Assembly (NCBI GenBank): GCA_000018565.1 | Contig: CP000875.1 | Coordinates: forward strand, 5,781,199-5,845,198 | Length of the DNA: 64,000 nt | Reading direction: 5' to 3' | From: Herpetosiphon aurantiacus DSM 785 | Lineage (GTDB): Bacteria > Chloroflexota > Chloroflexia > Chloroflexales > Herpetosiphonaceae | Shown: piece by piece, positions 1-6,121 of the stretch | Layout: every line of letters starts with the position of its first letter | Numbering within the stretch: the first letter of the stretch is position 1 | Notes under the pieces: model-generated | The model's input: only the letters and a program-made list of their open reading frames with translations | What the model was told of the DNA's origin: nothing | Database searches by the model: none | Translations under genes and position numbers: made by a program

Positions 1-1188
1 CATCAACGAGCCATTCAACAAATACCACGGCTCAATTGCGCCAGCTTCCTTCACGCGGCCAACTTCAATCAAATAGAGATTATGGTTGGCAACAGTGTAG
101 CGGCCACATTCGGCGATGATCATGGGTGCTGCCACGCCATGCTCAGCACAAATTGCTTGGGTATTGGCCATCAAGTTGGTCAAAAAGCCCACATAATCAA
201 ATTGGAAGGCCAAATCGTAGCCTGAGGTGGGCATGCCCCCGCCAAAATTAAACATCGTTAGGCTTGGAGTAGTGCTGGCCAAAGCGGCATAGGCATTGGC
301 TGAACGAGCCAAACGAGCTTCCCATGCAGCTGCATCTTCAATTTGCGAGCCAACCATGGCGTGATACACCACCAATTGATGCTGCGTGCCAGCCAAGCGC
401 TGGGCGACAAGTTGCATTTCAGCGGGAGTTAAGCCAAAGCGCTCGGCTCCAGCATGGTTACGATCCACGACATCAGGGGCGTGGCGTTCACGAACACCGA
501 ACAACATCGGTACACGACAATGGGCCAAGATATAATCAAGTTCATCGAGATCATCAAGCACAGCCACAACTCGCTCGTAGCCAGCCTGGCGCAAAGCCAA
601 GATCCCGTCGAGATACATCGGCTCTTTCGAGCCATTACAGAAGATATAGCGATCTTCGGAAAGCACCCCTTGCCGCCAGAGATGGTGAGCGATCACCACA
701 TCGGCTGCCGCTGAGGTTTCGTAATGAGCACCAGCATTCAAGGCTGTGCGCACCACTTCCTCCGAAAAATTGGCCTTGGTAGCATAAGCATACAAGAACG
801 AGCCAGTATAGCTTGATGCCGCCTGTGCAGCCATCGCATAATCAAGCATATTCTGCACCTGCGTGGTAATTTGCGGGCAGAACGAAACCTCAAGGGGTGC
901 ACCAAATTGCTCAACCAATGCACCCAGATCGACCGTATCGCCTAAGAGCAAGCGCTCATTGCGGCGCGTTAGAAAATCGGTCAAAGCCCCAGCACCCGAA
1001 AAGCCAAACGAATCATTCAGGTAGCCAGCATAGGTTTGCTCGATCAACTGGACATGTCCCTCCAAGCCGTGATGTCCACGACGATAGTGCTCAGCCACAA
1101 CATGGGGCTGAGAGAACAAAGTGCAATCAAAATTAGCGGTGTTCGTGCGTGTGTTTATTGACGGAGACTCCCAAAGTGCTTTGTCCAT
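1..1188 (-). CDS. PLP-dependent decarboxylase, arginine decarboxylase-like (3' end beyond the window)
   Basis: The minus strand is open from the ATG at 1188 to the left edge, so only the N-terminal ~396 residues are visible. The probable PLP lysine lies in YATKANF, a glycine loop reads FNFGGG, and ECGRYTVANHN near the edge resembles the E-S/P-GR-x-A-H signature of fold-type III decarboxylases. CNGSKEPMY recalls the CNGYKD segment of SpeA. Arginine decarboxylase (agmatine and polyamine synthesis) is therefore the best guess; ornithine, lysine or diaminopimelate decarboxylase remain possible. The start codon has no clear Shine-Dalgarno sequence and lies 12 nt after the T-run of a terminator, so expression is probably controlled by read-through of the leader. 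Confidence 0.65.
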   Translation of the reverse strand, partial: MDKALWESPSINTRTNTANFDCTLFSQPHVVAEHYRRGHHGLEGHVQLIEQTYAGYLNDSFGFSGAGALTDFLTRRNERLLLGDTVDLGALVEQFGAPLEVSFCPQITTQVQNMLDYAMAAQAASSYTGSFLYAYATKANFSEEVVRTALNAGAHYETSAAADVVIAHHLWRQGVLSEDRYIFCNGSKEPMYLDGILALRQAGYERVVAVLDDLDELDYILAHCRVPMLFGVRERHAPDVVDRNHAGAERFGLTPAEMQLVAQRLAGTQHQLVVYHAMVGSQIEDAAAWEARLARSANAYAALASTTPSLTMFNFGGGMPTSGYDLAFQFDYVGFLTNLMANTQAICAEHGVAAPMIIAECGRYTVANHNLYLIEVGRVKEAGAIEPWYLLNGSLM

Positions 1189-1199
1189 TTTTTGGGCAT

Positions 1200-1228
1200 A
1201 AAAAAACCAAGTGTCGGGCGACATTTGG
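1200..1228 (-). terminator. Second of two tandem terminators before the decarboxylase
   Basis: On the minus strand a ten-pair arm (CCAAATGTCG / CGACACTTGG, one A-C mismatch, 2-nt loop) is followed by seven Ts. It lies between the promoter and the decarboxylase start, so it can only act as an attenuator or a translation-blocking hairpin for that gene. Confidence 0.6.
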
Positions 1229-1243
1229 CCTAAGCACTGGGCA

Positions 1244-1270
1244 TAAAAAACCTGCCCAATCGCGGCAGGT
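1244..1270 (-). terminator. First of two tandem terminators before the decarboxylase
   Basis: On the minus strand the perfect 7-bp stem ACCTGCC / GGCAGGT with a 7-nt loop is followed by six Ts. This is a canonical intrinsic terminator about 300 nt downstream of the putative transcription start and 56 nt upstream of the coding start. Confidence 0.7.
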
Positions 1271-1565
1271 GAGGAGATAGACAGAGAACCATTGCTAGTC
1301 TGCTAGCATGATTGCAAAGCTCACCAACCTAGATTGAGGGAGGTTCAGCACAGCGCCGCGTAATCTGTCGCAGCGTGCAAAAATTCTGTCTACCGTTCAT
1401 ATAGCCTCGTTGAAAGCCCGCTCGGAAGTCAAAAACCAGCGCTCAAAACGTTGTGATGCGCCCCAGAAAACAACTACACTCATCGTTACAATCGATGCAG
1501 CCCCCTGCTGCCGATGAGTGCCGAGAAGGCACGGAACCTGTTGGCGAATTCCTTCACCGCTGCAT
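1271..1565 (-). promoter_or_regulatory. Long structured 5' leader, candidate riboswitch or attenuator
   Basis: This gene-free stretch lies between the promoter and the tandem terminators. It holds a 9-bp perfect stem (CACTCATCG at 1512-1520 with CGATGAGTG at 1477-1485) enclosing a GCAGC/GCTGC hairpin. It also has a GTGCC/GGCAC hairpin at about 1520-1532 whose last bases overlap the 9-bp arm, and a TGCTAG/CTAGCA hairpin close to the first terminator. I compared it by eye with T-box, lysine, guanidine, TPP and cobalamin elements and could not assign it. Confidence 0.5.
1329..1400 (-). CDS. Possible 23-residue Arg-rich leader peptide
   Basis: An ATG at 1400, preceded by GAGG six bases upstream, opens a 23-codon frame ending in TAG at 1329-1331. 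The peptide has four arginines (AGA, CGA, CGG, CGC) and ends with Glu-Pro-Pro-Ser-Ile. Its place between promoter and tandem terminators, upstream of an arginine-decarboxylase-like gene, matches the layout of attenuation or arrest peptides such as E. coli SpeFL, which senses ornithine. It is short enough to be chance. Confidence 0.3.
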   Translation of the reverse strand: MNGRQNFCTLRQITRRCAEPPSI

Positions 1566-1593
1566 ATTTTAGCCTAATTTTGGTGCTTGTCAA
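1566..1593 (-). promoter_or_regulatory. Sigma-70-type promoter for the decarboxylase leader
   Basis: On the minus strand TTGACA (1588-1593) and TAAAAT (1566-1571) are separated by 16 bp. This near-consensus promoter fires into the structured leader. Confidence 0.7.
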
Positions 1594-4846: not shown

Positions 4847-6121
4847 TTACTTCAGGTATGGAGCAACTTGGGGATAGCTGTTTTTAATGATGCTAACCAC
4901 ATCGTTGCTCGTCCAATAGGAGTTGTGATTGCTAATTGGGTTGCCCGCATTGGCATTGGTCGTAAAGTAATTGATCCCAGCATCGCGGGCGGCGTTATCG
5001 GCTCCAAGCACCCCTGGCACAACCAATGGCAAGGATTTCGGCGCTAAAATGCCAGTCATCAAGCCTGGAGTTAGGAAATTACGCCCTTCATCGGAGCGAA
5101 TCCATGGTTGGCCAATATAATCGCCTTTGTCGCTAACGCTGAGGAATTTGGCATATTGCATCGCCCGATCAGCATTGGCTACCGGCGACCCGAGCGTAAC
5201 CACCCCAGAAACATCAACGCCCATGTTATTTTCAAGCATTGGCGCGAGGTTACTGACAACTGCCCCACCGCCGCTATGCCCAATTAGCATGACGGTTTGG
5301 CCGGGCAATAATGGGTTACGGGCAAGGTCTTGTTGAATAAAGTTGTAGCTTTCCTGGGTATACTTGCCTTGATCTTGCATTGTATACTCTTGCACAACTT
5401 CGCTGACCCCGACTCCAGTATTAAACAACGCCGAAGCCCCATTGACAACACTGGCACCGGCACCCGTAACTCCATTCACGATCGAGGCTCCGGCTCCGGT
5501 CAGCCAATCGACGGGCGATAACCAACCACCATGATTGGTACCTTGCAAATCGGTGCCTTGCAAGTTGGTGGTGTAGTTGGTGTTGTAAATTGCCGGCATC
5601 GCCTTGATTTGGCTAGGATCATAGCCGTGGGCAGCCAACAAGCCGGCCAGTTGCTGTGGCCCTTCACCTGGAGTACCATCTGGCTCGCTGGCGTTAATCC
5701 CGTTGACAATGTACATGCGTGGTGGTGGCAACTGGTTCGCTGCCGCCGAGCCTGCCGCATTACCTGCTGCTGCGCTGAACGAAACACCACTGCCAGCACT
5801 TGAGCTAGCTCCACCATCAGCAAATGTGATCCCCTTAGCTGCCTCTTGTTCAGCTTGCTGGAAGATCGTACTAATTTGTTGGGTTACCGTTTGAGCTTCC
5901 CGCAATACACCTGTTAGACGTTGCATTGTGGGGAAAATTTCCGTCTGCATTTCATTGAAAAATGCCTTTGCCGCATCACCCATCCATCCGCCATTGGCTA
6001 ATGTTTCATAGCTCTGGCGAACTTGGCTGTTGATTTGATCAACTACCTCCGATTGCTTGCCAAACCGACTTGCAACTTGAGTGAGTTGGTCATACTGAGC
6101 TTGAACGATTTCAGCTCCCAT
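4847..6121 (-). CDS. WXG100-headed polymorphic toxin with alpha/beta-hydrolase (lipase-like) C-terminus
   Basis: Residues 1-100 form a helical hairpin with the WXG-type turn WMG at 46-48 and a conserved tail IFQQAEQEAA, the module that targets proteins to ESX/type VII secretion. A Ser/Ala/Gly-rich linker (101-130) leads to an alpha/beta hydrolase: nucleophile elbow GHSGGG with Ser283, candidate acids Asp331 or Asp334, and His399 in the SNHNSYW stretch. A lipase or esterase acting on a neighbour's membrane is the likely role. It heads an operon with a lipoprotein and an EspG-like protein. No secretion ATPase is present in the window. Confidence 0.75.
   Translation of the reverse strand: MGAEIVQAQYDQLTQVASRFGKQSEVVDQINSQVRQSYETLANGGWMGDAAKAFFNEMQTEIFPTMQRLTGVLREAQTVTQQISTIFQQAEQEAAKGITFADGGASSSAGSGVSFSAAAGNAAGSAAANQLPPPRMYIVNGINASEPDGTPGEGPQQLAGLLAAHGYDPSQIKAMPAIYNTNYTTNLQGTDLQGTNHGGWLSPVDWLTGAGASIVNGVTGAGASVVNGASALFNTGVGVSEVVQEYTMQDQGKYTQESYNFIQQDLARNPLLPGQTVMLIGHSGGGAVVSNLAPMLENNMGVDVSGVVTLGSPVANADRAMQYAKFLSVSDKGDYIGQPWIRSDEGRNFLTPGLMTGILAPKSLPLVVPGVLGADNAARDAGINYFTTNANAGNPISNHNSYWTSNDVVSIIKNSYPQVAPYLK

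Follow-up and report, generated by a model that had tools for sequence, protein, structure and literature searches.

A probable new family of attenuators coupled to translation of an upstream ORF in front of an arginine decarboxylase-like gene of the Chloroflexales

The leaders of the trp, his, leu and thr operons are built on a short ORF that is followed by a mutually exclusive antiterminator and intrinsic terminator, which overlap the ORF or lie just after it. A second arrangement is found in the speF leader of Salmonella and E. coli, where orf34, an ORF with two consecutive arginine codons, is located within a long structured leader, and where translation of orf34 prevents Rho-dependent termination (PMC6386406). 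Additionally, SpeFL has been described as an arrest peptide that senses ornithine (PMC8429421). For Chloroflexi, we found no paper on such a leader in the open-access literature. Here we describe a leader in front of an arginine decarboxylase-like gene that probably represents a new family of transcription attenuators coupled to translation of an upstream ORF (uORF). If this is true, then an order for which little RNA regulation is known would have a lineage-wide regulator of a polyamine-type enzyme that arose independently of the proteobacterial speF leaders, and the leader would constitute an attenuator that seems to take uORF initiation, as opposed to codon stalling, as its input. How these bacteria sense arginine or polyamines would consequently become a directly testable question.

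The window that we analyzed is a stretch of 64,000 nt (G000:C1:5781199-5845198) within a 6.8-Mb genome whose nearest named relatives are Herpetosiphon species. All features of the leader and of the decarboxylase are on the minus strand (Table 1), with a histidine kinase gene (2836-1676) upstream of the leader and the SpeA-like decarboxylase gene downstream of it, the latter extending past the window edge in what is a monocistronic-looking unit. An initial annotation of this DNA had described a near-consensus TTGACA/TAAAAT promoter, about 300 nt of strongly folded leader and two tandem intrinsic terminators. The promoter is confirmed with 11 of 12 consensus matches and would start transcription near position 1558, and both terminators are confirmed as well and are conserved in the genus. 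Folding of the ~300 nt leader (MFE -130) also holds up, though it is only somewhat better than that of shuffled sequences (z -2.1, with 2 of 100 shuffles equally good). The folding score on its own is weak evidence, and it is conservation that makes the leader real. For example, the promoter, the folded leader and both terminators are conserved in six genomes of the genus, and the leader core is 97.5% identical to that of three distant congeners. In the same comparison, identity drops to 75-78% when third codon positions of the decarboxylase gene are considered, and to 32-40% in the intergenic stretch that directly precedes the promoter, which, judged from these identities, puts conservation of the leader within the genus far beyond chance. 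Terminator 2 is called by a hairpin-plus-T-run search in all six Herpetosiphon genomes and in one MAG of the family (L071). A shared GGTTTTTTATGCCCA-like stretch comes after each of the two Herpetosiphon terminators (window 1252-1237 and 1208-1193), suggesting that terminator 2 is a duplication of terminator 1. Elsewhere in the window, positions 4847-6121 of the minus strand encode a 424-aa protein that, by eye, appears to combine a WXG100-type N-terminal domain with a downstream lipase/esterase-like region (GHSGGG).

Table 1. Features of the leader and the decarboxylase gene, in window positions
Feature	Position	Strand	Basis or remark
Sigma-70-type promoter TTGACA-16-TAAAAT	1566..1593	-	scan; 11/12 consensus matches
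P1, 5'-terminal hairpin GGUGAA-GGAA-UUCGCC	1543..1558	-	covariation
P2 5' strand GCCUUCUCGG	1521..1530	-	covariation
P2 3' strand CCGAGCGGGC	1416..1425	-	ends 16 nt before uORF ATG
uORF Shine-Dalgarno GAGG	1405..1408	-	column conservation
uORF ATGAACGG..TAG, peptide MNGRQNFCTLRQITRRCAEPPSI	1329..1400	-	23 codons; own Shine-Dalgarno; homologues open
Putative antiterminator left strand (distal uORF and first nt past its stop)	1319..1347	-	species-specific complementarity
Intrinsic terminator 1	1245..1270 (hairpin 1270-1250, T-run to 1245)	-	scan; order-wide conserved
Intrinsic terminator 2	1200..1228 (hairpin 1228-1207, T7)	-	read directly from sequence
Decarboxylase Shine-Dalgarno GGAGGG	1058..1063	-	kept in orthologues
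SpeA-like PLP decarboxylase	1..1047	-	start TTG 1047-1045; 517 aa; runs off window

The downstream protein carries an Orn/Arg/DAP decarboxylase domain, and it matches SpeA best both in sequence and in fold, with LysA close behind (predicted fold, pLDDT 77). It contains the SpeA-type active-site motif TCDSD, aligned with 3n2o and 3nzq. Its scores against the SpeA equivalogs PRK05354 and TIGR01273 are 133 and 115 bits versus cut-offs of 369 and 624, respectively, and it is also below the LysA equivalog cut-off. Judged by domain, motif and predicted fold, the protein is a likely arginine decarboxylase. A second and stronger Orn_Arg_deC_N protein is located elsewhere in the genome (C1:14925) and is presumably LysA. 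The genome additionally encodes two arginase/agmatinase proteins, and contains no PF04371 agmatine deiminase. In three of six congeners, 1-nt indels have removed the ATG located 12 nt past the second T-run, which had been taken as the start of the decarboxylase, or have shifted it out of frame. Orthologues across the order have a Shine-Dalgarno sequence GGAGG that is followed by TTG or GTG and then by x-x-Q-T-Y. The start could be placed in 44 of 46 loci and is TTG in 39, GTG in 5 and ATG in none, and conservation of such a weak start codon suggests that low translation has been selected. Because the decarboxylase begins at this TTG, behind its own Shine-Dalgarno sequence, the leader is ~510 nt long when measured to the start codon.

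Leaders in other genomes were found by reading the upstream regions of orthologues, with a contig scan adding named loci. The leader occurs in nearly all loci that have enough upstream sequence (86 redundant matches), with L095 and L125 being without the leader motif and L112 scoring only with a looser pattern. Reduction of 83 leaders gave 46 non-redundant leaders and 60 distinct uORFs. Across the order Chloroflexales these share a plan composed of promoter, P1, P2, Shine-Dalgarno sequence, UAUGGACG, uORF, terminator and a non-ATG start of the gene. The promoter is present in nearly all orthologous leaders at 137-233 nt ahead of the uORF ATG (uATG), and in most leaders the terminator lies 115-190 nt past the uATG. 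A feature confined to the genus was considered on the basis of blastn, which gave no match at E<=0.001 outside the genus, but this was rejected since the upstream regions of orthologues show an order-wide leader.

Helices were tested by comparing the pairing of a segment with its own partner to the pairing with a permuted partner from another species, because RNAalifold on an L-INS-i alignment returned an empty structure as a result of misaligned variable regions. By this measure P1 covaries across 21 divergent leaders (z -6.3, p 5e-5). P2, a helix of up to 10 bp in which the first 45 nt are paired with a segment that ends 14-18 nt before the uATG, also covaries (z -8.5, p 5e-5), with the caveat that these tests treat leaders as independent after removal of near-duplicates and that relatedness may inflate z somewhat; control segments of the same leaders show no such signal. 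Both strands of P2 change in many lineages, as in GCUCAUCUGG/CCAGAUGAGC, GCUUAUCUGG/CCAGAUAAGC, ACCCACUCGA/UCGAGUGGGU and GUUCAUCUGG/CCAGGUGAAC, versus GCCUUCUCGG/CCGAGCGGGC in the window. When 1083 window pairs were scanned without bias, P2 came out on top (z -7.8), followed by the terminator (z -7.4) and by the pairing of uATG+54 with the terminator (z -5.3), and zero pairs were above z +3. There are thus two helices upstream of orthologues that covary across the order, but these are not the stems that the initial annotation had named as sensor and switch. For example, the 9-bp CACTCATCG/CGATGAGTG stem that was proposed as the sensing part is kept within the genus only (A-U to G-U), and its region is variable outside of it. 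Chloroflexaceae leaders have a highly conserved insert of ~95 nt between the P2 strands (CCCGUUACGUUUUGGUGACGGG...CGCAACACGCAACACCGAACACGAAACGG, for example L044:2936-3070 on the minus strand) that gives no Rfam match. This inner domain was rejected as an independent RNA, as it is restricted almost entirely to the decarboxylase leader and its extra matches are only weak or at contig ends.

The most conserved nucleotides surround the uORF start. GAGG occupies -8 to -5 of the uATG, and the sequence UAUG[G/A]ACG is nearly invariant in the 46 leaders, with U at -1 in all 46, codon 2 being GAC or AAC only, and G at +6 nearly invariant. The invariance of UAUGGACG is partly circular, as the search pattern required ATG[GA]AC[GA]; a looser first search that admitted GAT/AAT, while scoring in favour of GAC/AAC, picked zero GAT/AAT. 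Conservation at these positions seems to go beyond coding need and, taken together with the covariation of P1 and P2 and with the short distance from P2 to the uATG, it would fit a strict riboswitch in which an aptamer for arginine, agmatine or a polyamine is built from P1, P2 and the invariant UAUGGACG, with the ligand gating the uORF ribosome-binding site or tipping the terminator/antiterminator choice. We nevertheless consider this rather unlikely, as the interior of P2 varies in length and sequence between families, which is unlike a typical aptamer core, and as we found no conserved pocket-lining nucleotides aside from the ribosome-binding region.

The uORF (1400-1329) is absent from the description in the initial annotation. 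Its ATG was picked from a sequence motif and irrespective of ORF length, and the frame is open for at least 22 codons in 46/46 non-redundant leaders, while shuffled leaders are open in a mean of 23.8 and a maximum of 34 of 46. Within the first 22 codons of the 46 leaders, frame 0 contains 0 stops, while frames 1 and 2 contain 32 and 27, respectively. The length of the uORF is 22-42 codons (median 34) across the order, and its stop is 13-58 nt (median 27) ahead of the terminator hairpin in all 42 leaders that were measured. This comparative evidence argues for a short ORF with a Shine-Dalgarno sequence that is translated. Regarding the encoded peptide, the first residues M-[DN]-[GVA]-x-x-N are mostly kept and sequences diverge after codon 7. 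The pN/pS of the 60 distinct uORFs is 0.71 versus 0.93 and 0.82 in the wrong frames, which suggests that the peptide is weakly constrained and nearly free to change. These features bear on classical amino-acid attenuation or an arrest peptide, whereby ribosomes stall at uORF codons either upon arginine shortage or upon binding of a ligand as in SpeFL. Such stalling would account for a conserved uORF with a mostly kept N-terminus, and for the RR pair in the Herpetosiphon peptide, a pair that is present only in Herpetosiphonaceae and a few others. However, arginine codons are not enriched in the uORFs (10.5%, compared with 11.6 and 12.1% when frames 1 and 2 are read), on which basis arginine-codon attenuation was rejected, and the free divergence past codon 7 means that the uORFs do not encode a conserved leader peptide with consecutive arginine codons as in speF. 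A strongly selected arrest peptide was likewise rejected given the pN/pS value, and a conserved C-terminal arrest motif is absent from the peptides. Stalling at specific codons is consequently an improbable explanation of this leader.

A model built solely from the sequence around the uORF start was also searched against 400 Chloroflexota genomes. The model matches 39 Chloroflexales genomes once each, with one genome having a second copy at a contig end. There is therefore essentially one match per Chloroflexales genome, located at the decarboxylase gene; the match in G044 and the second match in G065 are at contig ends, where the gene is beyond the visible sequence. No credible match was found elsewhere in the 400 genomes, and Anaerolineae homologues of the decarboxylase (36-39% identity) are without the motif. 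The sole match outside of the order, G175:C42:37526-37561, is marginal (E 0.009). The proposal that the leader belongs to no known class is upheld by Rfam release 15, which gave 0 matches over the gathering cut-off in the window, no credible match to the leader at E<=10, and none at E<=1 in 12 orthologous loci. As a candidate, 6S RNA was rejected, with the 6S RNA of this genome being located at G000:C1:5436559-5436726 (63.9 bits, over the Rfam cut-off). The strong promoter and the terminators could in principle yield a discrete small RNA of ~300 nt that ends at the terminators, with the decarboxylase transcribed from elsewhere, but this is very improbable given that the leader occurs only before the decarboxylase gene at 250-670 nt from uATG to gene start in every lineage, that 6S RNA is encoded elsewhere, and that no Rfam family matches.

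The clearest functional part of the leader is the uORF, whose distal end pairs with the terminator. In 32 leaders with distinct terminators, the segment from uATG+40 to +95 pairs better with the terminator region of its own leader than with that of another species (z -6.35, p 5e-5). Most of this signal comes from the 5' flank and 5' arm of the terminator (z -4.5 for these alone), and the 3' arm by itself gives no significant pairing. For leader segments that lie upstream of the uATG or past +60, z against the terminator ranges from -0.4 to +0.45, and pairing of the terminator with P1/P2 segments was rejected as there is no signal. In the window, the duplex is formed by 1347-1319 against 1274-1248. 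When the window segment uATG+40 to +160 is folded alone, the antiterminator forms and not the terminator. The MFE structure of the full-length leader contains the terminator, with the terminator flank paired to the 5' end, and because of this the switch is not settled by thermodynamics alone. Taken together, these pairings point to the distal uORF acting as an antiterminator strand. In L045, L091 and L093, which are Roseiflexaceae relatives, the best complement of the terminator is located earlier, at uATG+22 to +40 (CGAAUGGGUGGCUAUGUCU vs GACAGAGCCACCCGUUCAUC).

Comparison among leaders shows the overall architecture, an open uORF, covariation of P1, P2 and the terminator, pairing between uORF and terminator, and one-to-one linkage to the gene. 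Conditional read-through of terminators located between a promoter and its own gene, as initially proposed, is well supported. The initial annotation had left a choice between a riboswitch and an attenuator; the pairing of the distal end of the uORF with the terminator supports the attenuator, and a plain riboswitch is not the best description. In the attenuation mechanism that we propose, the RNA would fold P1 and P2, with the ribosome-binding site of the uORF (GAGG, UAUG[G/A]ACG) directly after P2. If the uORF is translated to its end, then ribosomes would cover codons ~15-30 and mask the antiterminator strand, allowing the terminator to fold 13-58 nt past the uORF stop and transcription to end. 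If the uORF is not initiated, or if the ribosome is halted early, then this strand would pair with the 5' flank and 5' arm of the terminator, and polymerase would read through to the decarboxylase, whose Shine-Dalgarno sequence and TTG are located further down. Translation of the uORF would therefore favour termination, and, by analogy with established attenuators, the spacing between stop and terminator fits a finishing ribosome that masks the antiterminator while leaving the terminator free. Since nucleotide conservation is strongest around the ribosome-binding site and the peptide can change almost freely, we infer that the input acts at uORF initiation. As a guess, the signal may report polyamine or arginine supply as feedback on the enzyme. 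We tentatively put forward as one possible form of this attenuator that P1/P2 and the UAUGGACG ribosome-binding site sense arginine or a polyamine and set uORF initiation, with ribosome traffic masking the antiterminator and the peptide hardly mattering.

Comparison with known systems reveals similarities as well as key differences. Like transcriptional riboswitches such as SAM-I, lysine and guanidine, the Chloroflexales leader combines a structured 5' domain with a terminator/antiterminator switch that lies between this domain and the gene. It differs from these in having a uORF inside the expression platform and in having no Rfam match. Like the trp, his, leu and thr attenuators, it has a short ORF followed by an antiterminator and an intrinsic terminator. 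In contrast to those systems, the uORF has no series of codons for a single amino acid, conservation is concentrated in two 5' helices and around the site where the uORF is initiated, and there is no match to an Rfam leader. The speF leader is similar in that a short uORF is located within a long structured leader, that the gene encodes a basic-amino-acid decarboxylase of polyamine synthesis, and that ribosome progress decides expression at speF and probably does so in the Chloroflexales leader. However, speF is an ornithine decarboxylase whereas the Herpetosiphon target is arginine decarboxylase-like, and termination at speF is Rho-dependent whereas the Chloroflexales leader has an intrinsic terminator with translation predicted to favour termination. 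Furthermore, a general arginine codon pair is lacking in Chloroflexales uORFs, and the leader structures differ. Because terminator type, predicted sense and sequence all differ, the leader is placed outside of the speF class, as well as outside of T-box and any Rfam class, and is filed under ribosome-mediated attenuation.
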